Shown one piece after another: positions 10,591 through 29,305 of a DNA stretch of 34,815 nucleotides. The stretch lies in assembly GCA_030605695.1 (NCBI GenBank), contig JAUWHX010000075.1, positions 1-34,815 on the forward strand. Reading direction: 5' to 3'. This stretch comes from a bacterium. GTDB lineage: Bacteria > Hydrothermota > UBA3073 > JACQXS01. The first letter of the stretch is position 1, and every line of letters starts with the position of its first letter. The notes under the pieces were generated by a model. It was not told the DNA's origin. It did no database searches and was given only the letters and a program-made list of their open reading frames with translations. The position numbers and the translations under genes are program-made.

Positions 10591-13500
10591 GATTAAAAAA
10601 CGAGATAATACAGAAGGAGAGAACCTCAAAAAGGATATCCTTGACCTTGTTGGAACGAATCCCGATTTATCTGGACCTGGCGAGAGAGTTAATATTGAAC
10701 GATGTGAGGTAATTCAGGTTTATTATCTTTTTGGGCAAACACATGTAGGGGTTCAATATATTGAACCCCTACAATCGGAAATTCAAAGAATTGCGGAAGA
10801 GTTGCTTGCAGATAGAGTTTGGGAAACATACAATATAGTTAAGAGTTCAGAGTTGAAAGTTCAGGGTAACAATTCCCTAATTCCCAAATATGAGGTTGAA
10901 GTTGCTTATAATCCCGGAGTGATGGACCCGGTAAGTGCAAGCACCTTAAAAGGAATACGGGATTTGGGAATCAAAGGTGTGCAAGAAGTAAAGAGAGCAA
11001 AAAAGTATTTAATCTATGGCTCACTATCTCAAGAAGAGTTAGAACTCGTTTGTAATAAACTTTTGCTTAATCCAACAATTCAGCATCGAGTTCAGAGTTT
11101 AGAGTTTAGAGTTAAGAGTCCAGAGTTAAGAGTTCCAGTTTTTGATAAACCAAATTATATAGATATTCTGAATGCTCCTATGGAAGAACTTTTAGATATA
11201 AGTAAAAATTATGGTTTAAGTCTTAACTCCGAGGAATTTAAGAAGATACAGTTGCATTTTAGGAGTCTTGGACGAAATCCCACTGATATAGAGCTTGAGA
11301 CAATTGCTCAAACCTGGTCCGAGCATTGCGTGCATAAGACATTCAAGTCAAAAATTAAGTTTAATGGGAAAATCATAGAGCCACTTTTTACCACACTTAT
11401 GAGAGCCACAAAAGAACTCTCGCGAGATTTCTGTGTCTCTGTTTTCAAGGATAATGCAGGTATAATAAAATTTACTGACGAACACAACATTTGTTTCAAA
11501 GTAGAGACTCACAATCACCCATCAGCTATTGAGCCATACGGTGGTGCAGGAACAGGAACTGGCGGAGTAATAAGAGATATTTTGGGAACAGGACTTGGGG
11601 CAAAGCCAATATTAAATACTGATGTTTTCTGTTTTGGGCCACCAGATTATCCTGCGAATAAACTCCCGAAAGGAACACTTCATCCCAAACGAGTTATGAA
11701 AGGAGTTGTAGCTGGGGTAAGAGATTATGGAAACAAAATGGGCATCCCAACTTCAAATGGAGCAGTGATATTTGACGAGAGGTATTTAGGAAATCCAGTA
11801 GTTTACTGTGGAACCGTTGGCTTAATGCCTTGTGATAAATGCGAAAAGCAGATTGTGCCAGAAGATTTGATTGTTCTCTTAGGTGGGAGAACTGGTAGGG
11901 ACGGAATACATGGAGTAACCTTTGCATCCAGAGAACTGACCGAAAGCTCGGAAACCGCGTCATCACAGGCAGTTCAAATCGGAAACCCAATCACCGAAAA
12001 GAAACTTACAGATGTGCTTCTTAAGTTGAGAGATGCAGGCCTATATCGTGCTATTACAGATTGCGGTGGAGGAGGACTTTCATCAGCTGTGGGCGAACTT
12101 CCAAGACCTTATGGAGCAGAAGTTGATTTAGACCTTGTGCCACTTAAATATGAGGGGCTCTCTTATCGGGAAATATGGATATCCGAAGCTCAAGAGCGTA
12201 TGATAATTTTTGTGCCTCAAGAGAATATTAAAAAACTACTTGAGCTATGTGCTAATGAGGATGTAGAAGCAACTGTCATTGGCAAAATAAGGAATGATAA
12301 AAGACTCTTGCTCCAATATAATGACACTATAGTTGGCAATCTTGATATGGAATTTCTCCACGAGGAGGTTCCTTTATCAATAAGAACAGCCAAATGGAGA
12401 CCACCGAAACTCAAGGAATCCAGCGATTCACGATTCACGATTCACGATTCACAAGACTTAACTCCTTACTTATTGAAAATTCTTTCAAGTTTAAATGTTT
12501 GTAGTAAAGAATGGGTAGTCCGCCAATACGACCATGAAGTTCAAGGAGGCTCTGTAATTAAACCTCTTCACGGAGATGCAGCAGTTACAAAACCTTTGCT
12601 TGATTCTAATCGTGGGGTTGTTGTGGGATGTGGGATTAATCCAAAATATGGAGAGATTGACCCATATTGGATGGCAGCCGGGGCTGTTGATGAGGCGATA
12701 AGAAACATCGTTGCGGTTGGAGCTAACCCAGAGCATGTAGCACTTTTGGATAACTTCTCCTGGGGAAACCCGAATAAGCCAGAAATATTGGGGCAGCTTG
12801 TTCGAGCCGTAGAAGGATGCTACTTTGCATCTAAGACTTACAAAGCACCATTTATATCAGGCAAAGACTCATTAAATAATGAATACCGAATAGGAAACAA
12901 AACTATATCTATTCCCTCAACCTTGTTAATTTCTGCTATTGGAATAATAGAGGATGTAAACAAAGCAATCTCAATGGATTTGAAAGCTCCTGATAATTCA
13001 ATATATTTGCTTGGTCTGACATTTGATGAACTTGGAGGCTCACATTATTATGAACTCCATGGATGGAGTAGCAATAAAGTTCCTAAAATTAAACCACAAA
13101 TTAAGATGCTCAAAAAACTTCATCAAGCGATGCAAATTGGGCTTATTCGTGCCTGTCATGATTGCTCGGAAGGTGGAATTGGAGTAACTTGTTCTGAAAT
13201 GTGTTTCTCTGGAAATCTTGGAATGCAAATCCGGCTTGATAAAGTAAAATGCGGAAAGCTCATTACTCAGGATGATACGATTCTTTTCTCTGAGTCTAAC
13301 ACAAGATTCGTGGTTGAAATAGCAAAAGAACAGGAAGCTGAATTTGAAAAACTAATGTCTGGATGTGATTTTAGTAAAATTGGGATAACTACTCCACAGG
13401 ATTCTTCGAAAAAGTCTCCAGAGCTTTTAATATTTGGGCTAAATGGGAAGCAAATTGTTAAGGCAAAAACTGCCGAGCTTAAAGAAGCCTGGCAATCTAC

Positions 13501-14338
13501 ATTAGCTTACAGTCAACGGTCAACAGTCAACAGTCAACAGTCAACGGCTAAAACTAACTCACAACTCACAACTCACAACCCACAACTCGCAACTCGTGTC
13601 TTGATTTTGAGGACAGCTGGAACTAATTGTGATATGGAAACTAAGTTTGCCTTTGAACTTGTCGGCTCAAAAGTAGATTCAGTGCATATAAATCAACTTA
13701 TAAGTCGCAAAAAGAGTCTTCAAGACTATGATATTCTCGTTTTGCCTGGTGGTTTTACCTATGGAGATGACATTTCTGCTGGCAAAATCCTTGCAAATGA
13801 ACTAAAATTTGGACTGGGAGAAGAACTTGAGAAATTCATTGATTCAAAAAAGCTGATACTTGGAATTTGTAACGGCTTCCAGATTCTTGCTAAACTTGGA
13901 TTGTTACCCGGAGGCAAATTAGGAGAACAACTTGTAACACTTACTAATAATACCTCAGGTATATTTCAATGTGAGTGGGTGCAATTAGAAGCTCCTAATA
14001 CTAAATGTGTATTTACCAGAGGGATTGAAGAACTTGAGTTGCCAATTGCTCACGCAGAAGGAAGGTTTGTCGCTTCTCGTCCTGTAATTTCGGAACTTGA
14101 GCAAAATAATCAAATAGCTCTTCGGTATAAAGATTACAATCCAAATGGCTCAATGTCAGATATTGCAGGGATATGTGACCCTTCAGGCAGAATCTTTGGG
14201 CTTATGCCTCATCCGGAGAGATTCGTATCCAAAATTCAACATCCTCAATGGACTCGCGATGAAATAGAGCCCTTAGGACTATTGATATTTAAAAATGCAG
14301 TGGAATATGTATCTAATAAAAAAACGAGTAATTTATGA
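10574..14338 (+). CDS. purL: Phosphoribosylformylglycinamidine synthase, large fused type
   Basis: 1254 residues, converting FGAR, glutamine and ATP to FGAM in purine synthesis. Order: two PurS-like halves (~1-85 and ~105-170), linker helix and FGAM synthase core (signatures TWSEHCVHKTFKS, VETHNHPSAIEPYGGAGTGTGG, DCGGGGLSSAVGE, then the second half with EVQGGSVIKPLHGDAAV and ISGKDSLNNE), and a class I glutaminase domain from ~1008 with catalytic Cys1099 in GICNGFQIL and MPHPERF. Smaller PurL systems encode PurS, PurL and PurQ separately. Here four of five 7-bp arrays lie at domain boundaries: residues ~88-97, ~172-188 and ~979-1007; another is at ~617-626. A 30-bp palindrome encodes residues ~57-67. 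There is no ribosome site at the start; it overlaps the upstream lipoprotein gene. ATG at 10577 is an alternative. Confidence 0.95.
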   Translation: MMWKIEIKKRDNTEGENLKKDILDLVGTNPDLSGPGERVNIERCEVIQVYYLFGQTHVGVQYIEPLQSEIQRIAEELLADRVWETYNIVKSSELKVQGNNSLIPKYEVEVAYNPGVMDPVSASTLKGIRDLGIKGVQEVKRAKKYLIYGSLSQEELELVCNKLLLNPTIQHRVQSLEFRVKSPELRVPVFDKPNYIDILNAPMEELLDISKNYGLSLNSEEFKKIQLHFRSLGRNPTDIELETIAQTWSEHCVHKTFKSKIKFNGKIIEPLFTTLMRATKELSRDFCVSVFKDNAGIIKFTDEHNICFKVETHNHPSAIEPYGGAGTGTGGVIRDILGTGLGAKPILNTDVFCFGPPDYPANKLPKGTLHPKRVMKGVVAGVRDYGNKMGIPTSNGAVIFDERYLGNPVVYCGTVGLMPCDKCEKQIVPEDLIVLLGGRTGRDGIHGVTFASRELTESSETASSQAVQIGNPITEKKLTDVLLKLRDAGLYRAITDCGGGGLSSAVGELPRPYGAEVDLDLVPLKYEGLSYREIWISEAQERMIIFVPQENIKKLLELCANEDVEATVIGKIRNDKRLLLQYNDTIVGNLDMEFLHEEVPLSIRTAKWRPPKLKESSDSRFTIHDSQDLTPYLLKILSSLNVCSKEWVVRQYDHEVQGGSVIKPLHGDAAVTKPLLDSNRGVVVGCGINPKYGEIDPYWMAAGAVDEAIRNIVAVGANPEHVALLDNFSWGNPNKPEILGQLVRAVEGCYFASKTYKAPFISGKDSLNNEYRIGNKTISIPSTLLISAIGIIEDVNKAISMDLKAPDNSIYLLGLTFDELGGSHYYELHGWSSNKVPKIKPQIKMLKKLHQAMQIGLIRACHDCSEGGIGVTCSEMCFSGNLGMQIRLDKVKCGKLITQDDTILFSESNTRFVVEIAKEQEAEFEKLMSGCDFSKIGITTPQDSSKKSPELLIFGLNGKQIVKAKTAELKEAWQSTLAYSQRSTVNSQQSTAKTNSQLTTHNPQLATRVLILRTAGTNCDMETKFAFELVGSKVDSVHINQLISRKKSLQDYDILVLPGGFTYGDDISAGKILANELKFGLGEELEKFIDSKKLILGICNGFQILAKLGLLPGGKLGEQLVTLTNNTSGIFQCEWVQLEAPNTKCVFTRGIEELELPIAHAEGRFVASRPVISELEQNNQIALRYKDYNPNGSMSDIAGICDPSGRIFGLMPHPERFVSKIQHPQWTRDEIEPLGLLIFKNAVEYVSNKKTSNL
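10744..10773. repeat. Perfect 30-bp palindrome within purL
   Basis: The sequence 10744-10773 is a perfect inverted repeat, each half reading tgtaggggttcaata. It is translated in frame as roughly VGVQYIEPLQ inside the first PurS-like half. It could form a 15-bp cruciform or RNA hairpin, and resembles small palindromic elements that insert into genes. Confidence 0.9.
10837..10864. repeat. Heptanucleotide array in purL, between PurS-like halves
   Basis: Four 7-mers: agttaag, agttcag, agttgaa, agttcag. They encode about SSELKVQ (residues ~88-97). Confidence 0.85.
11088..11136. repeat. Heptanucleotide array in purL, PurS-to-core linker
   Basis: Seven consecutive 7-mers of type gagttha (gagttca, gagttta x2, gagttaa, gagtcca, gagttaa, gagttcc), 49 bp, encoding residues ~172-188 (VQSLEFRVKSPELRV). 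Confidence 0.92.
12424..12451. repeat. Heptanucleotide array in purL, mid-core
   Basis: Four exact copies of cgattca, encoding SDSRFTIHDS (residues ~617-626), between the two halves of the FGAM synthase core. The unit is related to the inverted repeats beside accD (2659-2679). Confidence 0.93.
13510..13592. repeat. Two heptanucleotide arrays in purL, at the glutaminase junction
   Basis: Five 7-mers of cagtcaa/cggtcaa (13510-13544) and then five of ctcacaa and variants (13558-13592), together encoding a Ser/Thr/Gln/Asn-rich linker (~979-1007) immediately before the class I glutaminase domain. Confidence 0.93.
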
Positions 14339-14344
14339 AGGATT

Positions 14345-14818
14345 ATGAAGCTTGAGGAAGAAGTTGGGAAGGTTCTCAAACAGAAGGGACTTACAATCTC
14401 GGTTGTTGAATCCTGTACCGGTGGGCTTATTCAAAAACTAATTACTGATGTCTCAGGAAGTTCGGAGTATTTTCTTGGAGGCATTGTTGCTTATTCAAAC
14501 CTATTAAAACAGAAACTTCTTAATGTATCTCCACAGACTTTAATTACGCACGGTGCAGTTAGTGAAGAGACAGCTTGTGAACTTGCTCGTGGCGTGAGAG
14601 AAATCACTGGTGCAGACATTGGAGTTTCAACCACCGGGATTGCAGGTCCTGCTGGTGGAACTCCCAAAAAACCTGTTGGGCTCGTTTATATAGGGTTATG
14701 CACCGAGAAAATTCTAACTGCCCACAAATTTTTATTCAAGGGAACGCGCCAAGGAATAAGAAAACAAACAGCTGACAAAGCTCTTGAACTTGTGAAAAAT
14801 GTAATCCAAAGTATCTAA
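14345..14818 (+). CDS. pncC: CinA C-terminal-type nicotinamide-nucleotide amidase
   Basis: A stand-alone 157-residue CinA C-terminal domain (PncC). These enzymes deamidate nicotinamide mononucleotide to nicotinate mononucleotide in pyridine nucleotide salvage. The family motifs are clear: VVESCTGG near residues 20-27 (with the catalytic-site Ser), VSGSSEYFLGGIVAYSN, GAVSEETACELA, and TTGIAGPAGGTPKKPVGLVYIG. Length is normal for the single-domain form; the N-terminal CinA nucleotide-binding domain is absent. It begins 6 bp after the purL stop with a modest aagg ribosome site, so it should be cotranscribed with purL. Confidence 0.93.
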   Translation: MKLEEEVGKVLKQKGLTISVVESCTGGLIQKLITDVSGSSEYFLGGIVAYSNLLKQKLLNVSPQTLITHGAVSEETACELARGVREITGADIGVSTTGIAGPAGGTPKKPVGLVYIGLCTEKILTAHKFLFKGTRQGIRKQTADKALELVKNVIQSI

Positions 14819-18624: not shown

Positions 18625-18732
18625 CAGAAAAAACTTATAGATTTTAGCTTTTAAAATATTTTTCAATATTTTCTAAAAATTGCTTGACACCATAGAATTA
18701 GTTGTTAATTTTAAACCAGTTAAAAAAGGAGG
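18616..18732 (+). promoter_or_regulatory. Promoter and leader of the redox/sulfur operon (duplicated block, copy 1)
   Basis: TTGACA (18684-18689), 16-base spacer, TAATTT (18706-18711), then aaaggagg (18725-18732) before the dsrE-like ATG. The segments gaaagtcaaca, tttttcaatattttc, agttgttaatttta and aaaaaaggaggt recur with the same spacing to the promoter at 26287-26405. Confidence 0.75.
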
Positions 18733-18739
18733 TATTGTT

Positions 18740-19093
18740 ATGGCTAAAGTAGCAATTACGTGTAATGGGTCAGAGCCCGGTAATGTTTTTCCACCTTTTA
18801 TTTTGGGCTCAAGTGCAGTTGCATCCGGTGATGAATTAGTTCTGTTCTTTATACCTGGTGGCGCACCTGCTCTGGTGAAAGGAAAGATGGAAACGATGAA
18901 AGTCAAAGGGTTGCCAGACTTAGTTGAGTTATACGAAGGAGTCCGAGGTCTTGGAGGCAGAATACTTGTCTGTGAACTGGCATTAGATGCTAAAGATTTG
19001 AAAAAAGAGGACTTTAGAGAAGGTGTAGAAATCGTAGGAGCAACCACATTCCTGAATGAGATTAAGGATGCTACGATAACTTTCTCTTTTTGA
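18740..19093 (+). CDS. DsrE-family protein
   Basis: 117 residues from the ATG at 18740, chosen because a strong aaggagg site lies 7 bases upstream and the frame before it overlaps the promoter. The fold pattern (beta-strand AKVAITCNG, FFIPGGAPALVKG, then GRILVCELALDA with a Cys in the position conserved in DsrE proteins) fits the DsrE/TusD family, which carries persulfide sulfur. Domain FIPGGAPAL resembles the DsrE2-like versions found beside TusA. It is the first gene of the nine-gene operon and is followed after 22 bp by TusA, its usual relay partner. Direction of sulfur flow cannot be read from sequence. Confidence 0.8.
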   Translation: MAKVAITCNGSEPGNVFPPFILGSSAVASGDELVLFFIPGGAPALVKGKMETMKVKGLPDLVELYEGVRGLGGRILVCELALDAKDLKKEDFREGVEIVGATTFLNEIKDATITFSF

Positions 19094-19115: not shown

Positions 19116-19340
19116 ATGGCTACACATACACTTGATACTTTGGGACTTAAATGTCCCCAGCCAATTCTTAAAGTGGCAGTGAAAGCTAAGGAACTTCAAC
19201 CAGGCGATATGCTTGAGGTAATAGCTGATTGTCACTCTTTCCCTGATGATATGAAAGCATGGTGTGAAAAGACAGGCAGGACCCTACTTGTCTGTGCGGA
19301 TGAAGGGGGAGGAAAGTTTAAGGCTCAGATACAATTTTAA
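19116..19340 (+). CDS. tusA: TusA/SirA-family sulfur carrier
   Basis: 74 residues, the usual size of TusA. The hallmark CPQP (CPxP) has the sulfur-binding Cys at residue 13, in TLGLKCPQPILKVAVKAKEL, and the DMLEVIADC strand follows. TusA carries sulfur as a persulfide on this Cys, passing it between DsrE-type proteins and acceptors. In tRNA thiolation it works with TusBCD; in sulfur oxidisers it works with sHdr enzymes. Neighbourhood with HdrA-like proteins favours the second kind of role, but the direction is unknown. Strong ribosome site (aaaaggaggt). A paralog is not seen elsewhere in the window. Confidence 0.93.
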   Translation: MATHTLDTLGLKCPQPILKVAVKAKELQPGDMLEVIADCHSFPDDMKAWCEKTGRTLLVCADEGGGKFKAQIQF

Positions 19341-19428: not shown

Positions 19429-19854
19429 ATGCAAGAAGAGTTTACACCTAAGATAGTGGGGTTTCTGTGTAATTGGTGCTCCTACGCGGGTGCTGACCTT
19501 GCAGGGACAAGTAAATTGAAAATGCCCCCTTCTCTTGCAGTCATTAGAGTAATGTGCTCCAGTAGAGTAGACCCTGTTCTTGTATTGAGAGCCTTTTTGC
19601 GAGGTGCAGATGGGGTGTTGATTGCAGGATGCCATCCGGGAGATTGCCACTATGAGAAGGGAAATTATTACGCTCGTAGAAGATTCGCACTCTTAAAGTC
19701 AGTTGTTGAGACCCTGGAGCTGGATTCAGAAAGATTACAGCTATCATGGGTTTCTGCATCAGAGGGACCCAGATTTCAACAGGTAGTTACTGAATTTACA
19801 GAGAAGTTAAAAAAGCTTGGACCCAACCCGATGCAGGAAAAAACATCTATGTGA
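19429..19854 (+). CDS. MvhD-like 2Fe-2S electron-transfer subunit (copy 1)
   Basis: 141 residues, the length of MvhD/VhuD, the small iron-sulfur subunit that passes electrons between a hydrogenase or other donor and HdrA. Cysteines occur as CNWCSY (14 and 17), CSSRVDP (~44) and GCHPGDCHY (~67-73), the family's pattern, followed by GNYYARRRFA. A second, very similar copy ends the operon (25764-26189). No hydrogenase large or small subunit is nearby, so the partner donor is more likely one of the FrhB-like proteins downstream. The start ATG has only a weak gag ribosome site. Strong family match, partner inferred. Confidence 0.92.
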   Translation: MQEEFTPKIVGFLCNWCSYAGADLAGTSKLKMPPSLAVIRVMCSSRVDPVLVLRAFLRGADGVLIAGCHPGDCHYEKGNYYARRRFALLKSVVETLELDSERLQLSWVSASEGPRFQQVVTEFTEKLKKLGPNPMQEKTSM

Positions 19855-19863
19855 TATTAAAAA

Positions 19864-21141
19864 ATGAAAGAGAAAAACGGTAATGTATTAATAATAGGAG
19901 CTGGAGTTGCAGGAATGGAGGCAAGTCTATTACTCGCTAATTCAGATAAAAAAGTCTATCTGGTTGAGCGTACATCCTACACCGGTGGCAATGTAATAAA
20001 GTTTGAAAAAGTTTTCTCTAATATGGAATGTGCTACTTGTATGTTAGCACCAAAGCAACAAGAACTTCTGGCAAACGAGAATATTGAACTTTTGACTCTT
20101 GCTGAGGTTATTGATGTTAAAGGTTCCGCCGGAGATTTTACTGTAAAAGTTAGGAAAAAAGCTAGGTATGTAGATTTGCAGAATTGTATTGGCTGTAGTG
20201 CTTGCTTTGAGCCCTGTCCGGTTAGCGTGAAAAATGAATTTGAAGAGGGACTTTCGGAGAGAAAGGCAATATATGTTCCCTGTCCCGGTGCACTTCCAAA
20301 TGTTCCTGCAATTGATACAGAAAATTGTGTCAGATTTAAAGGCAAGGATTGTCAACTGTGCAAAGAAGCTTGTATGTTTGAAGCAATTGATTTTGACCAG
20401 AAAGATGAGGAACTTAAGCTGAAAGTCGGAGCAATAATAGTAGCCACAGGATTCAGCACATTTGACTCCAAAAAGACCCCTCACCTCGGATACGGGAAAC
20501 TTGCTGATGTATATACTGCCTTTGAGTTTGAGAGAATGTTTGCTTCTAATGGACCTACCGAAGGAGAGATTAAGCTCCGAAATGGTGAAACTCCGAAATC
20601 TGCTGTTATCATCCATTGCGTAGGGAGAGAAGAAAAAGGATATTGTTCTGGAGTGTGCTGTATGTATTCCCTTAAATTCACTCACTACTTGAAGGAAAAG
20701 CTTCCAGAAATCAAGATAGCCGAGTTTTATTCTGATTTATGTATTCCGGGTAAGTCCTATCAAAAGTTTTATGAGGAGACCAAAACTATGGGACCCGAGA
20801 TTATTAGATTCAATGAGATTGAAGTCGTCAACGCTAATGGACAACTAACAGTAAACTACAAACCCGACACCCTAAACCCTAAACCCCAAACCCTAAATAC
20901 TGATATGGTTATTCTTGCTCCAGCAATTGAACCGGACGGTAATGCGAATAAACTTGCAGAGGTAATTGGCATTCCCCAAGATGAATATGGGTTCTTTGCT
21001 GAAGGGCATCCAGAGATTGACTCTGTAGCTACGCAGAAAGAAGGAATATTTATTGCAGGGTGTGTGCAAGGACCAAAAGACATTCAAGACTCGGTAGCCC
21101 AATCAGAAGCAGCAGTGGGAAAAATACTTTCATCAAGATAA
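19864..21141 (+). CDS. Short HdrA-like flavoprotein with inserted ferredoxin
   Basis: 425 residues. Starts directly with an FAD-binding GAGVAG (12-17), so the N-terminal domain of full HdrA is missing. CATCMLAPKQ (Cys 56, 59) matches the FAD-proximal cluster site. An inserted ferredoxin domain has CIGCSACFEPCP (from 108) and CQLCKEAC (from 163). The second nucleotide-binding region has VGAIIVATGFSTFD and CVGREEKGYCSGVCCMYS. The C-terminal ferredoxin of HdrA is absent; it ends after GIFIAGCVQGPKDIQDSVAQ. Such proteins hold FAD and can bifurcate or confurcate electrons. It resembles QmoA in size. A 7-bp array encodes residues ~333-346. It starts 9 bp after mvhD, with no clear ribosome site. Confidence 0.88.
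   Translation: MKEKNGNVLIIGAGVAGMEASLLLANSDKKVYLVERTSYTGGNVIKFEKVFSNMECATCMLAPKQQELLANENIELLTLAEVIDVKGSAGDFTVKVRKKARYVDLQNCIGCSACFEPCPVSVKNEFEEGLSERKAIYVPCPGALPNVPAIDTENCVRFKGKDCQLCKEACMFEAIDFDQKDEELKLKVGAIIVATGFSTFDSKKTPHLGYGKLADVYTAFEFERMFASNGPTEGEIKLRNGETPKSAVIIHCVGREEKGYCSGVCCMYSLKFTHYLKEKLPEIKIAEFYSDLCIPGKSYQKFYEETKTMGPEIIRFNEIEVVNANGQLTVNYKPDTLNPKPQTLNTDMVILAPAIEPDGNANKLAEVIGIPQDEYGFFAEGHPEIDSVATQKEGIFIAGCVQGPKDIQDSVAQSEAAVGKILSSR
20860..20901. repeat. Heptanucleotide array in short hdrA
   Basis: Six 7-mers close to aaaccct (aaacccg, acaccct, aaaccct, aaacccc, aaaccct, aaatact), encoding a Pro/Asn-rich loop before NTDMVILAPA. The aligned site in the long hdrA (about 22496-22530) has a degenerate version. 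Confidence 0.85.
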
Positions 21142-21283
21142 AATGCAATTAAAAACAGGGATTGAAAGAGAACCCAAGAGAAATAAGAAAAAAATCTCTT
21201 CCAATCTCTTGAAATTCCTGTTAAATTGAAATGAGTACACAGAGTGGACATATTGAAAGTCTCTGTGACCTCTGTGGTTAAAA
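21142..21283. other. Spacer between hdrA paralogs with long hairpin
   Basis: Arms 21154-21181 and 21195-21222 are inverted repeats matching at 22 of 28 positions around a 13-base A-rich loop. After it, cacagag...ctctgtg and cctctgtgg elements (about 21238-21275) form a smaller hairpin directly before the next gene, which has no ribosome site. No gene is seen. Confidence 0.6.
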
Positions 21284-23020
21284 ATGCCTATGGAAGAGAA
21301 AATAGGTGTATATGTATGTGAATGTGGGCCCAATATAGCTGATAAGGTAGATATTGATAAAGTAGTGGAGACAATTTCTTCTCTGCCATCCGTAAATGTA
21401 GTTGAGAGGCATAAGCTTTTGTGTTCCGAAGATGGCAAGAAATTCCTCAAAGAAAGTATCCAAAAAAATGAATTAACGCGTATTGTAGTTGCAGCTTGCT
21501 CACCAAAGCAACATGAGGTTACATTTATGAGAGTATGTGAGTCTGCAGGCATTAACCCCTACTTTTTCCAACTTACTAACATACGGGAGCAGTGTGCCTG
21601 GATTATAGACGATAAGGAAGAAGCTACTGAAAGGACGATAAGATATATAAGAGCAGCTATTAGAAGAGTCCTTTATCATAAAGCCCTTGAGAAGAAAGAG
21701 ATAGAAGCGAATCCTGATGTTCTTGTAATTGGAGGCGGGATTGCAGGAATTTCCGCGAGTCTATTACTTGCCAGTGGAGACAGAAAGGTCTATTTGATTG
21801 AGAAAACAAAAGTTGTCGGAGGAAAAGTCCGAGAATTTGCCAAACTTTTTCCACGAATGGAGCCGTGCTCTGATATTATATCGCAGAAAATCAAGGAAGT
21901 AGAAAACAATAAAAATATTGAAGTTCACACTGACAGCGAAGTTTCTGAAGTATTAGGATTTCTGGGAAACTTTGTTGCAAAAGTAAACACCAGCGAAAAT
22001 AAAGCTATCGAGCAACCAAGCGAGCAAGCTATCAAGGAAAAGGGTTTAGAAAATAAGGAGCTTGAACTCAAAGTTGGAGCAGTGGTAGTGGCTACTGGAT
22101 TTAGTATGCTTGACTTACAACAGCTTCCCCAATATGGATATGGAAAATATGATAATGTCTATACCGCTCTGGAATTTGAAAAGATGAATGCTGAGGGGAA
22201 AATTCTTCTAAAAAATGGTAAACCTCCAAAGCAAATTGCTATTATCCATTGTGTAGGAAGAGAAAAAGTAGGTTATTGTTCAAGGGTTTGTTGTATGTAT
22301 TCTCTTAAGTTTGCTAATTATATCAAATCTAAACTCCCAAGTGTCAAGGTATCTCATTTATATACAGACCTTACTGTTCCAGGCAAAACTTATCAAAAAT
22401 TCTATGAACAGACCAAAGAAAAGGATGTTGAATTCATCCGTGCCCAAGATATTGAAATTACTGAGTCTAATGGACAGCTAACGATAAACCACAAAGGAAC
22501 CCCTAACCTCAAACCCCTAAATACCGATATGGTAATTCTTTCTTCTGCTATTACTCCTTCCTCTGATGCCCACAAGCTCGCAGAGATGCTTAATATTTCT
22601 CAAGGTGATAATGGCTTCTTTGTAGAAGAGCATCCAAAACTTGCACCGGTTTCTACATCAATGGAAGGCATATTTATTACTGGATGTGCTCAAGGCCCAA
22701 AGAATATTTCAGATTCAATAGTTCAAGCACAAGCAGTAGCTGGGAAAATACTCTCAAGTATTATCCCTGGCAAGAAATTAGAACTTGAGGTAAAAACCTC
22801 TGAAATCTCTGAAGCACTTTGTATTGGCTGTCAGACCTGTCTTGAGGTTTGTTCTTATGGGGCTATTTACTTTGATGAGATAAAAAGAGTATGCATCGTA
22901 AATGAAGTATTGTGTAGAGGATGCGGAAACTGTGTTGGAAGTTGTCCATCCGGAGCAGCATCATCTAAACATTTTACCACTACACAACTTCATCAAGAAG
23001 TTGTAGAAGCACTAAGATGA
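21284..23020 (+). CDS. Long HdrA-like flavoprotein with N- and C-terminal iron-sulfur domains
   Basis: 578 residues. The N-terminal domain typical of HdrA is present (GVYVCECGPNI, KLLCSEDG, VVAACSPKQHE, NIREQCAWI), then FAD-binding GGGIAGISASLLLA near 148 and VVVATGFSMLD. Where HdrA normally has its inserted ferredoxin there is only a short Glu/Lys-rich loop (SENKAIEQPSEQAIKEKG). At the FAD-proximal cluster site only one Cys remains (MEPCSD). The C-terminus carries two 4Fe-4S motifs (CIGCQTCLEVCS and CRGCGNCVGSCP). Its domain losses are complementary to those of the short paralog just upstream, so the two could act as a heterodimer equal to one full HdrA. ATG 21284 or 21290; neither has a ribosome site. 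Confidence 0.9.
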   Translation: MPMEEKIGVYVCECGPNIADKVDIDKVVETISSLPSVNVVERHKLLCSEDGKKFLKESIQKNELTRIVVAACSPKQHEVTFMRVCESAGINPYFFQLTNIREQCAWIIDDKEEATERTIRYIRAAIRRVLYHKALEKKEIEANPDVLVIGGGIAGISASLLLASGDRKVYLIEKTKVVGGKVREFAKLFPRMEPCSDIISQKIKEVENNKNIEVHTDSEVSEVLGFLGNFVAKVNTSENKAIEQPSEQAIKEKGLENKELELKVGAVVVATGFSMLDLQQLPQYGYGKYDNVYTALEFEKMNAEGKILLKNGKPPKQIAIIHCVGREKVGYCSRVCCMYSLKFANYIKSKLPSVKVSHLYTDLTVPGKTYQKFYEQTKEKDVEFIRAQDIEITESNGQLTINHKGTPNLKPLNTDMVILSSAITPSSDAHKLAEMLNISQGDNGFFVEEHPKLAPVSTSMEGIFITGCAQGPKNISDSIVQAQAVAGKILSSIIPGKKLELEVKTSEISEALCIGCQTCLEVCSYGAIYFDEIKRVCIVNEVLCRGCGNCVGSCPSGAASSKHFTTTQLHQEVVEALR

Positions 23021-23039: not shown

Positions 23040-23516
23040 ATGAAATCTTTGATGATTTTTGTGTTCATTGTGGTATTGGGTGGATGCAAGAATAAGGTAA
23101 CTGAAACAGAAGAGAAAACCCTCTATACTGAATTCCAGCTTATAGACTCTCTCGGAGTTCCCACCACGAGTTTTCATGTTGGAGACAATGTGTATTTTTA
23201 CTGTGCTATTATTAATCGGACTGGCAAGACACAACCGTGGTGGAAATCAAGTACAGCACCCATTGTATTTTTCGAAGTGTTTATTGGAGATAGTTTTATT
23301 GGTTCTTCTGTTGATGGAATGGGCTTTGCAGATGTGATAGTTTCTGGCAAACTATTGAATAGTGATATTCTTGCTCTTAAAGATTCTTGGCTTGCAAACC
23401 TTAAACATGGAGTGTTACCAGTAGGAGAGTATACAGTGTGGGCAAAACCACAATTACGGTTTGATAATTTTGGAGCTTTGCCTGATGAAAAAATCGATTT
23501 CAAAATTTTACCTTGA
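23040..23516 (+). CDS. Lipoprotein of unknown function within redox operon
   Basis: 158 residues with a lipoprotein signal (hydrophobic start ending in VVLGGC, lipidated Cys at about 16). The rest looks like a single beta-sandwich: FHVGDNVYFYCAIINRTGK, IVFFEVFIGDSFIG, and LPVGEYTVWAKPQLRFD resemble the strand pattern of BsuPI-type and other Ig-like envelope domains, but I do not recognise a family with certainty. It lies 19 bp after the long hdrA and 22 bp before the first FrhB-like gene. An exported protein is unexpected among cytosolic redox subunits; it might tie the complex to the envelope or be a chance insertion. Confidence 0.65.
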   Translation: MKSLMIFVFIVVLGGCKNKVTETEEKTLYTEFQLIDSLGVPTTSFHVGDNVYFYCAIINRTGKTQPWWKSSTAPIVFFEVFIGDSFIGSSVDGMGFADVIVSGKLLNSDILALKDSWLANLKHGVLPVGEYTVWAKPQLRFDNFGALPDEKIDFKILP

Positions 23517-23538: not shown

Positions 23539-24651
23539 ATGAAAGGTGCAATTCTGAAAATAGAAAATAGCATAGAAAAGACCATTATTGAGTTTCTGAA
23601 AAAGGGATTAGACAAGAAGCTATTTGATGTAGTTCTTATACCTGTAAAGGTACCTGCTGGTGATTCTTATGCTTGGGTTTTGGTGCAGGATAAAGCTCTT
23701 CTTGAAGATGCCAATCCTCTTCCTCCTGTTATGTTGGTTCAGGGAGCTAAAGCATTAAGCAGTATAACGAGAAGAGGGAAATCAAATAAGAAGATTGCGG
23801 CGATTATGAGACCTTGCGAGATAAGAGCATCAATTGAGCTTTCTAAACTTCAGCAAATAGATTTAGAAAATATATGTCTTATCTCAATTGATTGTCCAGG
23901 TGCATTGCCATTAAAGGATTATCTTGAAGACACAAAGAAAGGAATAGATACATTTAAAAAAGTTATCAAAGAATGGGGGAATGAATCTGTGCGTCCCATT
24001 TGTCAGATGTGCGATAAATCTGTAGGGTTATCCATACAATCGGACTTGCATATAGGGATATTTGGAGCAAAAAACAATGAAATTTATCTTATTCCGTCCA
24101 GCCAAAAAGGGAAAAGTATTTTAGAGGAAATCGGTATTCCTGCGGAAGAATCAATGGATAATTGGGAGAAAAAAACGAAGGAGTTCGTAGAAACAAGAAA
24201 GAAAAATAGGAAAAAGATTCAATCTACCTTAAGTGAAAAAGTTATGGGGTTGGATAACTTGCTGGAGACTTTTAGCAATTGTATAAATTGTCATAATTGT
24301 CAAAGTGTTTGCCCTATTTGTTATTGCAGGCAATGTTATTTTGAATCAGAGAAGATGAAACTTTCATCTGATGATTATTTAATAAGAGCAGAAAGCAAAG
24401 GTATTCTGCGATTCCTTCCTGACACCTTATTATTTCATCTTGGACGGATGACACATATGAGTCTTTCTTGCGTAGGGTGTGGAGCGTGTGAAGACGCTTG
24501 TCCTATGTCTATCAAAGTGGCACAAATATTTAGTATAGTAGGAGATAGGTCTCAAAAAGTATTTAATTATATTCCGGGTAAAAGTATTGAGGAGTCTCTT
24601 CCTCTCAAAGTTTATGAAGAAGATGAGTTTCACGATGTAGAAAAACCTTGA
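23539..24651 (+). CDS. FrhB/FdhB-like flavin and iron-sulfur oxidoreductase subunit (copy 1)
   Basis: 370 residues of the coenzyme F420 hydrogenase/formate dehydrogenase beta-subunit superfamily. The flavin-binding part includes MRPCEIRASIELSKLQQIDLEN and SIDCPGALP, with RPICQMCDKS further on. Ferredoxin motifs CINCHNCQSVCPICYC (from ~247) and CVGCGACEDACPM (from ~310) follow. In archaea FrhB passes electrons between F420 and iron-sulfur centres through FAD; bacterial relatives beside HdrA probably use NAD(P)H or ferredoxin, but the substrate cannot be told. A paralog follows two bases after the stop (24654-25760). These may be the electron input modules of the complex. Confidence 0.85.
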   Translation: MKGAILKIENSIEKTIIEFLKKGLDKKLFDVVLIPVKVPAGDSYAWVLVQDKALLEDANPLPPVMLVQGAKALSSITRRGKSNKKIAAIMRPCEIRASIELSKLQQIDLENICLISIDCPGALPLKDYLEDTKKGIDTFKKVIKEWGNESVRPICQMCDKSVGLSIQSDLHIGIFGAKNNEIYLIPSSQKGKSILEEIGIPAEESMDNWEKKTKEFVETRKKNRKKIQSTLSEKVMGLDNLLETFSNCINCHNCQSVCPICYCRQCYFESEKMKLSSDDYLIRAESKGILRFLPDTLLFHLGRMTHMSLSCVGCGACEDACPMSIKVAQIFSIVGDRSQKVFNYIPGKSIEESLPLKVYEEDEFHDVEKP

Positions 24652-24653
24652 AA

Positions 24654-25760
24654 ATGTCAAAAGTCCTAAGAATAAGCAAAGGTGCAGAACAAGGTGTGCA
24701 AGAACTTCTAAAGTTCCTTCTGGAAAGTGGGAAGGTTAAAGGAGTTCTTACCCTTACAAAGATAAACAATAATGGTGCAGTTGATTATTCACTCATTACT
24801 AACTCAGAGATGCTTAAAGATGCTTTACCACTTTTTCCTTTAATGCCTGCAAATGCTGGTAAATTGCTGTCCCGTTTTACACTGAAATCCGCACTTGCCG
24901 AACCCATTGCGGTAGTTGTAAAGCCCTGTGAACTCAGAGCATTTATAGAACTTGTAAAACGAGAACAAGGGAGTCTGGAAAACTTTTTATTTATATCATC
25001 TACTTGTGATGGAGTCTATCCACTTGAAATATCCTCTAATGGAGAAGTAGCTAAAAAACTCTCTAAATATTGGGATGCAGTCAAAAAAGGAGATATTGCT
25101 CCAGATATTAGACCTACTTGTTCCTGCTGTAAGTATTTTTTACCTTACAATGCTGATATTACGATTGCTTTGATTGGTGAGAATATTGACAAAGAATGCA
25201 AAATATTTCTGACTACTGAAAAGGGAAAGAAATCTGTAGAAGGCATGAAAGGACAGCTTGTGGAAGGAGAACTTAAAACACAAGAGGTGAAAAACTTACT
25301 TAACAAAAGAGAGGAAAACAAGAAAAAGCTTTTTGATAACCCCGCATTAATGCAGGATGGGCTCTCAGGATTGATAGAGACTTTCGGTAGATGTATAGGT
25401 TGTCATGGATGTAGCAGAGTTTGTCCTATTTGCTACTGCACACTATGTACTTTTGATTCCAAAGACTATGAAAATGAACCCTCCACTTATGAAACAGAAC
25501 TTAAGAAAAGAGGAGGTATGAGAGTTCCTCCTAATACAATACTTTATCATATTGGTAGGTTAACCCATATTGGGATTTCTTGTGTCGGATGTGGAATGTG
25601 CACAGATGTATGTCCAGTTGATATACCACTTTCAACTATCTTCCTAAAAGTAGGTGGAGAAGTCCAACAAACCTTTAATTATATCCCGGGAAAAAGTGTA
25701 GAGGAAAAAGTCCCTCTTACTATATTTGAGAAAGAGGAACTTACCGAAGTGGAGGATTGA
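24654..25760 (+). CDS. FrhB/FdhB-like flavin and iron-sulfur oxidoreductase subunit (copy 2)
   Basis: 368 residues from ATG 24654, two bases after the previous stop; a TTG two codons earlier overlaps that stop and is less likely. Same architecture as copy 1: VKPCELRAFIELVKREQGSLEN, TCSCCKYF instead of RPICQMCDKS, then CIGCHGCSRVCPICYCTLC and CVGCGMCTDVCPVDI, and the shared ending FNYIPGKSVEEKVPL. The two copies have clearly diverged, more than the two MvhD copies, so they may bind different flavin substrates or occupy different positions in a heteromeric complex. The mvhD copy 2 starts 3 bp downstream. Confidence 0.85.
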   Translation: MSKVLRISKGAEQGVQELLKFLLESGKVKGVLTLTKINNNGAVDYSLITNSEMLKDALPLFPLMPANAGKLLSRFTLKSALAEPIAVVVKPCELRAFIELVKREQGSLENFLFISSTCDGVYPLEISSNGEVAKKLSKYWDAVKKGDIAPDIRPTCSCCKYFLPYNADITIALIGENIDKECKIFLTTEKGKKSVEGMKGQLVEGELKTQEVKNLLNKREENKKKLFDNPALMQDGLSGLIETFGRCIGCHGCSRVCPICYCTLCTFDSKDYENEPSTYETELKKRGGMRVPPNTILYHIGRLTHIGISCVGCGMCTDVCPVDIPLSTIFLKVGGEVQQTFNYIPGKSVEEKVPLTIFEKEELTEVED

Positions 25761-25763
25761 GAA

Positions 25764-26189
25764 ATGAAAGACGATTTTGAACCAACGATAATCGGATTCC
25801 TATGCAGATGGTGTTCTTATGCAGGTGCTGACCTTGCAGGAACGAGTAGACTTCAATATCCACCGTCTATGCTACCTATTAGAGTTATGTGCTCAAGTAG
25901 AGTAGATCCAGTTTTTATTATAACAGCTTTTTTGCGAGGTGCAGACGCAGTTTTAGTTGCAGGATGTCACCCCGGAGATTGTCACTACATAGAAGGAAAT
26001 TATTATACTCGTAGGAGATTTGCTTGCCTACGCAAAATCTTTGAAACATTGGGTATGGAGTCTGACAGAATAAGACTCTCCTGGATTAGTGCATCAGAAG
26101 GACCAAGATTTGCACAAGTAGTCACAGATTATACGGATAAGATAAAAAAGCTCGGTCCTAATCCTGCCAAAAAGGAAATCTTCCTATAA
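25764..26189 (+). CDS. MvhD-like 2Fe-2S electron-transfer subunit (copy 2)
   Basis: 141 residues, same length as the first mvhD and almost identical in the cysteine-bearing parts: CRWCSYAGADLAGTS, RVMCSSRVDP, GCHPGDCHYIEGNYY, and the ending KKLGPNP. It ends the operon. Two MvhD proteins for two HdrA-like proteins suggests one per HdrA. A ggagg site lies 8 bases before the start. A C-terminal KKEIFL versus QEKTSM distinguishes the copies. No terminator is obvious after it; cactaaat-type 8-mers occur at about 26208-26235. Confidence 0.92.
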   Translation: MKDDFEPTIIGFLCRWCSYAGADLAGTSRLQYPPSMLPIRVMCSSRVDPVFIITAFLRGADAVLVAGCHPGDCHYIEGNYYTRRRFACLRKIFETLGMESDRIRLSWISASEGPRFAQVVTDYTDKIKKLGPNPAKKEIFL

Positions 26190-27571: not shown

Positions 27572-29305
27572 CTATCTCAATATCGTGAGTTTTCTGGTTG
27601 CCTTGAAATCACCCACTACGAGTTTTGCAAAATAGATGCCAGTTGTCAACTCTTTTGCATTGAAGTCAACACTATAATTCCCAGCTTCTTTCTCTCCACT
27701 CACTAATGTTTTTACTTTCCTGCCAGTGATGTCATAAATCTTCAATGAGACATTGCCTTTGGCTGGTAGTTGATAGCTGATAGCTGTGGAGTTCGTTAAT
27801 GGGTTAGGGAGAATTTTCATAAATGGTAACTGGTTATTCTGCATCTCTTCAATTCCAACGAACTTACCACATATCAAGCTATCCAGAACTTTTACAGAAG
27901 AGTCCGCGATTTCCATTATCTCCATACCAAGCAGATACTCATATACTGATGAATCAACATACACCTCTGGAGAATCCACAAATATATCAATATCCTGAAG
28001 GCAAGCATTAGGACTATTAGGACAAGGTATATCACCATTCGCATCTGTCTTGGCAACAAGAAGATTAGCAGGAGTCCAAGGGGATGGCCAATCTGTATAT
28101 CCTGTAGCAGCATAAAAATCCTTCGGATATTCTATGACATACTGACCATAGTCATCTAAGTTCATTGGTGTTGCCGGACAACCTGTCAATACCTTTGACC
28201 ATTTTATCAGCCCATTTATATCAATTTTGGTCATCAGAAGGTCAAAGGAACTCGTTTTACCCGGGTCAGTGAATCCTGTAAAGACATAATTGCCATCCGA
28301 GGTATTCTCAATACACCGAGAACTGGCAATATCTGGTATAGTATAAATCCTGCAGTTCCCGAGCCATCCTACCTTTAGGTTCGGGTGTAATTTCATAACC
28401 ACGATACTTGAATCTACATCACCAGTCAGTATATAACCGGGCTGGAGGTGATCGTTCTTGATATTGTATGCACAGCTAAATCGTCCCGGAGGACTGTAAT
28501 CATAAAGCTGTCTTGTCGCAGGGTCAATGGTGCCATCAGACTTTTTCCCTTTGAATGCCAGAATGTCGGACATTGGGTATCCAGGTTCAACTTCATAACA
28601 CGACTTCCCTGCTACCACCCAAAGATTAGGAGTTGCAACACTTGAATCCTCAATAATAGAATATAGATAGTCATCTGTAGGAAACTCATCATAGAGCATT
28701 TTACCATAAGCCCGTGTCCAATTAGGAAAACCACTATCTGCAGTCACACTCATTACCAATGCATCGGAAAGACCTCCACAAGGAGCTGGCCTGCTAATCC
28801 CCTCAACATTTCCAGCAACCAGATAGTCTCCTCCATCATTGGTAATAGAATATGCGTAGTCAGCAAGGGGTCCCGTTTGATCAAACCCACAATACCTATA
28901 TCCCCATACCTTACTGCCATCACTGGCTTTTATCTTGAATATCAGAATATCTGCAAGGTCTTCCGGTGCTATCCCAGGACTGGTATATCCTGTTACCACA
29001 TAATAAGTCGTATCCTCATCATAGTCCACAATAACGGAGCGACCATAGTCATCTCCTTCATACAGAGGACCAAAGACTCTTGACCAGATTACACTTCCAT
29101 CAGCAATGCTTAACTTAGTAACCAGGACATCCAGTCCACCCAGAGGACCCATATTTGTATGTCCAACAACCACATATGCTTTATCAACAGTGTCACAAGC
29201 AATAGAATAAGCGGTATCGTTGTAAGATTCTTCACCGAATCTATCGTATGCCTTTGCCCACGGTGTCTGTCCTATTAACATCAATAAAATACTTATACTT
29301 ATCAT
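27572..29305 (-). CDS. Secreted beta-propeller-like protein with C-terminal sorting domain
   Basis: 577 residues. A signal peptide (hydrophobic residues 2-12, cleavage likely after AKA) leads into repeated blocks with the theme D-YSI..D...YVVAGYT...D.LV.K....G...W.R.YG, about seven times, as in delta-60/propeller-type secreted proteins. The final ~85 residues are a classic T9SS type A-like sorting domain: LPFMKILPNPLTNSTAISYQL, VSLKIYDITGRKVKTL, GNYSVDFNAKELTTGIYFAKL, ending TRKLTILR. Such tails direct export and surface attachment in FCB bacteria and occur widely in WOR-3-type genomes. A strong ggaggaggaaaaa-type ribosome site precedes the ATG. Function unknown. Confidence 0.88.
   Translation of the reverse strand: MISISILLMLIGQTPWAKAYDRFGEESYNDTAYSIACDTVDKAYVVVGHTNMGPLGGLDVLVTKLSIADGSVIWSRVFGPLYEGDDYGRSVIVDYDEDTTYYVVTGYTSPGIAPEDLADILIFKIKASDGSKVWGYRYCGFDQTGPLADYAYSITNDGGDYLVAGNVEGISRPAPCGGLSDALVMSVTADSGFPNWTRAYGKMLYDEFPTDDYLYSIIEDSSVATPNLWVVAGKSCYEVEPGYPMSDILAFKGKKSDGTIDPATRQLYDYSPPGRFSCAYNIKNDHLQPGYILTGDVDSSIVVMKLHPNLKVGWLGNCRIYTIPDIASSRCIENTSDGNYVFTGFTDPGKTSSFDLLMTKIDINGLIKWSKVLTGCPATPMNLDDYGQYVIEYPKDFYAATGYTDWPSPWTPANLLVAKTDANGDIPCPNSPNACLQDIDIFVDSPEVYVDSSVYEYLLGMEIMEIADSSVKVLDSLICGKFVGIEEMQNNQLPFMKILPNPLTNSTAISYQLPAKGNVSLKIYDITGRKVKTLVSGEKEAGNYSVDFNAKELTTGIYFAKLVVGDFKATRKLTILR

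Follow-up and report, generated by a model that had tools for sequence, protein, structure and literature searches.

What does one electron-bifurcating site of HdrA require: both protomers of the dimer or a single one, and what purpose does the second flavin serve? This long-standing point becomes testable at a locus of the window analysed here (the whole 34,815-nucleotide contig JAUWHX010000075.1, part of the WOR-3 metagenome-assembled genome (MAG) G000, which is 84% complete), where adjacent genes encode a short and a long HdrA, hereafter S and L. There is strong support for the view that the two paralogues arose by duplication of an HdrA whose parts were then split between the copies. We further put slightly above even the chance that S and L form an obligate heterodimer, which would retain one of the two ancestral active units and carry out bifurcation linked to sulfane sulfur; such a natural one-site dimer would amount to one site isolated without mutation.

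We mapped the cysteines of both proteins by alignment with solved HdrA structures (5odc and 8rvu) and with domain hidden Markov models (HMMs), using the methanogen numbering of M. thermolithotrophicus HdrA (5odc) as the reference. The main elements of the pair, with residue numbers of S and L themselves unless stated otherwise, are the following:

19864..21141, + strand: HdrA-short (S), flavin adenine dinucleotide (FAD) domain plus inserted ferredoxin; 425 aa, intact open reading frame (ORF)
20029..20040, + strand: S residues C56-C59, corresponding to C194-C197 of methanogen HdrA (alignment to 5odc; role of Cys197, PMC9012536)
20167..20406, + strand: inserted ferredoxin of S, residues about 102-181, 8 Cys (domain HMM, cysteine table)
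21284..23020, + strand: HdrA-long (L), N-terminal cluster domain, insert-free FAD domain and C-terminal ferredoxin; 578 aa, intact ORF
21293..21697, + strand: N-terminal Fe-S domain of L, residues 4-138 (domain HMM), with C12, C14, C47, C72 and C104 invariant
21989..22069, + strand: short linker of L in place of the inserted ferredoxin, about residues 236-262 (alignment)
22793..23002, + strand: C-terminal ferredoxin of L, residues 504-573, 8 Cys (domain HMM, cysteine table)

The match of S to HdrA starts at the FAD domain and runs to the end of S; the N-terminal domain and the C-terminal ferredoxin are absent, and S retains C194/C197, all eight cysteines of the inserted ferredoxin and C386/C399/C403/C404 (methanogen numbering). 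L matches both ends of HdrA and skips the inserted ferredoxin: it keeps C11, C13, C46, C71 and C103 of the N-terminal domain together with all eight cysteines of the C-terminal ferredoxin, and has P and D in place of C194 and C197. A sequence-only reading of this stretch had described these same complementary domain losses, and both the alignment and the domain HMMs bear it out. Its further statement that L lacks most of the FAD-proximal cysteines is correct for C194/C197 but not for the four-cysteine cluster C386/C399/C403/C404, which L preserves (as C323, C332, C336 and C337) just as S does. In the same way, its conclusion that the two proteins together make exactly one full HdrA describes the accessory domains, of which there is a single set, but not the FAD core, which is present twice and has been duplicated rather than divided. 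Both proteins match the NCBIfam HdrA2 model (9.7e-131 for S and 4e-158 for L), each under the whole-protein cut-off, and both contain the FAD/thioredoxin-reductase domain with the C386-C404 cluster that marks the HdrA superfamily, while the accessory domains that HdrA carries on one chain are distributed over two.

The division is equally sharp in relatives of the pair. C194/C197 are present in 20/20 aligned S rows (which include two rows of the window's own gene) and absent from 17/17 L rows, at identities of 47-98%, and besides cysteines, L has lost P201, R357, the GPT loop at 363-365 and M405, all of them constant in S and in full-length HdrA. A single aberrant S, that of locus L018, departs from the others near C386-C404. 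Because the same complementary pattern occurs in every relative, it is neither chance nor an assembly error.

To which ancestor do the two halves trace back? Our main tree, which covers 233 columns of the second FAD segment in 72 rows, unites four full-length Mvh-associated HdrAs with 22 S and 21 L in one 100/100 clade; methanogen HdrA, other WOR-3 HdrAs and both halves of fused HdrA fall outside it. S and L thus share a common clade instead of grouping with distant HdrA lineages, which lends good support to the earlier proposal that an HdrA was duplicated and its parts then divided. Genes for MvhD and NiFe-hydrogenase subunits come after those of the full-length relatives, which in L024 and L062 lie directly downstream of the S/L gene cluster. 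For the branching order of the three groups, joining S to the full-length proteins gave p 0.18 and joining L to them p 0.49, and neither was rejected. A tree of the N-terminal half (94 columns, a short alignment that draws the fastest rows together) parts S from L more than does the tree of the C-terminal half, and we give it no weight. Gene conversion between S and L, raised by their higher identity in the second half (59%) than in the first (46%), was rejected, as no grouping of S with L from the same genome is seen and their identity within a locus (47.4%) is barely higher than between loci (44.6%).

The same division of parts is found in a fused S-L HdrA of about 1030 aa (type II), which lies beside the cluster in L013, L025, L027 and L062 and is also encoded on another contig of the window's own genome (L003, G000:C60:12942-17609). 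Its first half contains the FAD domain and the inserted ferredoxin with Cys194/197, and its second half the N-terminal domain, FAD domain and C-terminal ferredoxin. Since the approximately unbiased (AU) test rejects a grouping of S with the first half of the fused protein (p 0.008) and of L with its second half (p 0.001), these phylogenies indicate at least two origins of the asymmetric HdrA dimer, in one case as two genes, as here, and in the other as a single fused protein, now found in neighbouring loci. As a separate observation, 800-870-aa HdrA-like frames with a single in-frame TGA occur in WOR-3 loci of many genomes (e.g. G086:C1 and G112:C1), a recurrence that suggests selenocysteine in HdrA-MvhD fusions.

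The S/L pair belongs to a larger operon, whose remaining genes are as follows:

18740..19093, + strand: DsrE-family sulfur carrier, 117 aa (Pfam DrsE_2 / DsrE); C78 invariant in 17/17 aligned sequences, window included
19116..19340, + strand: TusA sulfur carrier, 74 aa, with KCPQPI (CPxP motif); motif Cys invariant in 18/18 aligned sequences, window included
19429..19854, + strand: MvhD-1, [2Fe-2S] protein of the MvhD/FlpD family (Pfam FlpD, 9.8e-55); five Cys invariant in 19/19, window included
23040..23516, + strand: lipoprotein-like 158-aa ORF between L and fdhB; no family match
23539..24651, + strand: FdhB-1, FdhB/ElpB-type electron-input subunit (profile match to ElpB/FdhB of Hdr complexes, best 1.1e-47); 15 invariant Cys
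24648..25760, + strand: FdhB-2, second FdhB/ElpB-type subunit (profile match 1.3e-51); 15 invariant Cys, 37.5% identity to FdhB-1
25764..26189, + strand: MvhD-2 (Pfam FlpD, 1.8e-53); 67% identity to MvhD-1

For DsrE we adopt the ATG at 18740, which has a good ribosome site, over the ORF caller's start at 18680. TusA, upstream of MvhD-1, had not been named in the earlier reading and is an addition to it. Both FdhBs are full-length relatives of the FdhB/ElpB subunits of Hdr complexes, and the five invariant cysteines are present in both MvhDs. The order dsrE-tusA-mvhD-hdrA(S)-hdrA(L)-fdhB-fdhB-mvhD is repeated in 18 named MAG loci and in further WOR-3 genomes; the named loci are labelled WOR-3, Stahlbacteria, TA06, Cloacimonadota, Aminicenantes, Spirochaetales, Dehalococcoidia and Thermoplasmata (these are MAG labels, and some of the loci are possibly misbinned). 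In 18/18 of them TusA, MvhD-1, S and L lie side by side, always with L directly after S; DsrE is found in 16/17 loci able to show it and both FdhBs in 14/15 where the contig allows, MvhD-2 is absent from its usual place in L013 and L026, and the lipoprotein-like ORF was seen solely in the window and in L009, from the same genus. This conserved module is new in our analysis, as are the common clade of S and L with full-length Mvh-type HdrA and the separate origin of the fused protein, and a TusA/DsrE-linked HdrA module was not described in the open-licence literature that we searched.

How might two such proteins work together? In the Elp-Hdr structure, an MvhD-type subunit and the N- and C-terminal domains of one HdrA constitute a mobile arm that serves FAD', HA4' and HA5' of the partner, HdrA' (PMC12350162), while the N-terminal cluster of one HdrA is ligated by Cys197 of the other (PMC9012536). 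Given that the arm serves the partner FAD, an HdrA homodimer consists of two crossed units, of which the S+L combination would keep one and delete the other. In favor of this reading, the S/L split falls exactly on the line that separates arm from partner FAD in the structure, and the residues lost in L around the Cys197 site (P201, R357 and the GPT loop) point the same way. The arm clusters lie 20-25 Å from the partner FAD in solved complexes and are thought to move (PMC12350162); the 14 Å limit on cluster distances that the sequence-only reading had set for the pair is unusable because at such arm-to-FAD' distances the real enzyme would fail it too.

In the mechanism that we propose, L would supply the mobile arm (its N-terminal cluster, its C-terminal ferredoxin and a docked MvhD), and S the electron-splitting flavin, with Cys197 of S capping the N-terminal cluster of L. 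Electrons would enter or leave at FdhB-1 and FdhB-2 via MvhD, the donor probably being of the pyridine-nucleotide type, and the inserted ferredoxin of S would pass low-potential electrons out to (or in from) ferredoxin. The FAD of L, with no arm, Cys194/Cys197 or outlet of its own, may be a scaffold or a simple relay. The high-potential branch would end at sulfane sulfur on TusA and DsrE, where persulfide would most likely be reduced to sulfide alongside the reduction of ferredoxin. We infer the heterodimer and its electron path from homologous structures, and the sulfur substrate, the direction and bifurcation itself from context only. Taken together, the S/L pair and its sulfur-carrier operon suggest a so far undescribed sulfur-linked electron-splitting enzyme of uncultured microbes, and the gene content points to a ferredoxin-linked flavoenzyme, fed by FdhB and MvhD, that acts on carried sulfane sulfur. 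More tentatively, and with appreciably less than an even chance of being right in full, this would be a single-site heterodimeric bifurcating enzyme in uncultured anaerobes, one that works without HdrB to reduce (or oxidise) sulfane sulfur bound to TusA/DsrE, with FdhB-MvhD input and ferredoxin as low-potential partner, and with asymmetric dimers having evolved at least twice. Electron bifurcation would then be tied to sulfane-sulfur carriers in deep-branching uncultured phyla without known sulfur respiration genes.

Several points weigh against the one-unit heterodimer. The operon has no HdrB or HdrC, so the high-potential branch is without its usual disulfide site, and no persulfide-reducing site has been proven for any protein that the operon encodes. 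There are two FdhBs and two MvhDs for a single arm, and the model does not place them; this second FdhB-MvhD pair and the lack of an HdrB-type site are its principal difficulties. In addition, L retains an FAD domain and four-cysteine cluster for which a pure scaffold would have no use, at L016 the S/L pair and the sulfur carriers occur without FdhB genes, and several of the host MAGs may be mislabelled.

The wider genome context adds to the sulfur theme and narrows the choice of pathways. Rhodanese proteins are encoded immediately upstream of the cluster in L010, L015 and L016. In 5/5 Aminicenantes loci the gene immediately upstream of dsrE is that of an ArsR-family regulator with a Cys pair (SGERCVND, NLRCYF), which we take to resemble persulfide-sensing ArsR proteins:

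L017:7343-7603: Aminicenantes ArsR-family regulator; also in L019, L020, L021 and L023

On the L016 stretch, from a MAG labelled Thermoplasmata, a 1674-aa protein of many tandem rhodanese domains (L016:1177-6201) lies directly upstream of the dsrE-tusA-hdrA cluster, and a pyridine-nucleotide-disulfide oxidoreductase is encoded at 13413-14798. The window also encodes a Cys/Met-metabolism pyridoxal-phosphate enzyme (PF01053, 32070-33233) with a possible sulfur link, of which L017 and L021 have a homologue downstream of the cluster, and a secreted repeat protein (27572-29305) whose C-terminus, FMKILPNPLTNSTAISY...GIYFAKLVVGDFKATRKLTILR, resembles a type IX secretion sorting tail. HdrB/HdrC-type and LbpA genes are absent from the window operon; HdrB-type CCG proteins of the same genome are encoded on other contigs, and HdrC-HdrB directly follows the module in some relatives only, such as L025 and L026. 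Searches of the window's own genome, at 84% completeness, found no sulfite/nitrite reductase (NIR_SIR) domain, no match to aprA (which also has no match over the cut-off in any of 147 WOR-3 genomes) and no cofH for F420 synthesis. F420 is therefore probably not the carrier, and, as far as a genome of this completeness can show, Dsr, Apr/Qmo and F420 do not explain the module.

Which other explanations fit these observations? The one that survives best, possible yet in our view unlikely, is that the S-L heterodimer is a non-bifurcating electron hub, or bifurcates between FdhB carriers and ferredoxin, and that TusA and DsrE are merely co-operonic, serving thiolation or sulfur supply. The missing HdrB-type site favors this explanation, the presence of two unlike FdhB-MvhD pairs hints at two soluble carriers, and TusA and DsrE also function in tRNA thiolation in many bacteria; yet TusA sits directly upstream of mvhD-S-L in 18/18 named loci from several phyla, and the rhodanese proteins or ArsR regulator added in several loci would be unlikely for mere neighbours. 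Improbable by comparison is a module that oxidises sulfane sulfur in the manner of the sHdr pathway and sends electrons to FdhB-linked carriers and ferredoxin. TusA, DsrE and an ArsR-family regulator recall sHdr loci, but the operon lacks HdrB, HdrC and lipoate-binding protein, the genome has no NIR_SIR enzyme and the hosts appear to be anaerobes.

A shade less probable again is that S and L are not partners, each forming a homodimer or joining a full-length HdrA of the same genome. Full-length HdrAs of the same clade do occur in some of these genomes (directly downstream of the operon in L024 and L062), but an L homodimer would have neither Cys197 nor inserted ferredoxin and an S homodimer no arm; moreover, the two genes are invariably neighbours and their branches in the tree mirror one another. 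We regard it as very unlikely that S and L represent diverged forms of QmoA and QmoB in an adenosine 5'-phosphosulfate reductase electron path, QmoB's MvhD portion being encoded by its own gene; the sequence-only reading had drawn this likeness from the sizes. The two tandem HdrA-like genes, the combination of L with a separate MvhD and the closeness of type II QmoAB to HdrA (PMC10504309) speak for it, but the comparison is unsupported by the aprA and sulfite reductase searches and by the operon partners, which are of FdhB/ElpB and TusA/DsrE type and include no qmoC-like gene; moreover, QmoA of Thermosulfurimonas is described with FAD and one four-cysteine cluster and no mention of an inserted double ferredoxin (PMC4911364), which S has. 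Least credible of all is breakage of a fused type II HdrA, whose order and domain split are identical to those of S and L but which the AU test on the C-terminal FAD segment and the separate 100/100 clade of S, L and full-length HdrA reject.

Set beside known systems, the proposed obligate heterodimer of one-unit type has both precedents and peculiarities. QmoA and QmoB are likewise two unequal HdrA-derived flavoproteins, but QmoB has a C-terminal MvhD fusion, whereas here MvhD is unfused and encoded twice, and the AprAB and QmoC partners are absent (a plasmid search for Qmo reference sequences returned two HdrA-like matches only). The sHdr systems also tie an HdrA-like protein to TusA/DsrE with ArsR-family regulators nearby, but sHdrA is a small FAD protein that works with HdrB1C1/B2C2 and LbpA, in place of which the S/L operon encodes MvhD and FdhB. 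With the HdrABC-MvhAGD, Fdh-Hdr and Elp-Hdr complexes of methanogens (5odc, 7bkb and 8rvu), the module has in common the HdrA domains, MvhD, the cysteine ligands and FdhB/ElpB inputs encoded beside HdrA and MvhD; those complexes differ in having a homodimeric HdrA with two units, HdrBC plus hydrogenase or Fdh, and no sulfur carriers. The fused type II HdrA shows the same split as S/L but is one polypeptide of separate origin, with no TusA/DsrE of its own noted beside it, and a 2025 survey includes two-flavin type II HdrA as well as a class, A6, that resembles S (PMC12054007). The closest precedent for the pairing itself comes from anaerobic methanotrophic archaea (ANME) and Moorella, where complementary tandem and fused HdrAs led to the proposal of heterodimers (Chadwick et al. 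2022, PMC9012536), so the idea of an obligate heterodimer is already known. Those proteins (HdrA5/6, 12/13, 3 and 4) resemble S and L in their complementary C-terminal ferredoxin, and all adjacent S/L pairs show the arrangement described there, a tandem of one HdrA with the N-terminal domain and no Cys197 and another with Cys197 and no N-terminal domain. By comparison with their published description, the pair reported here is mainly bacterial and consists of two separate genes, S then L, in an operon that encodes TusA and DsrE but neither FdhA nor HdrBC, and the inserted ferredoxin, too, is part of the split between them.

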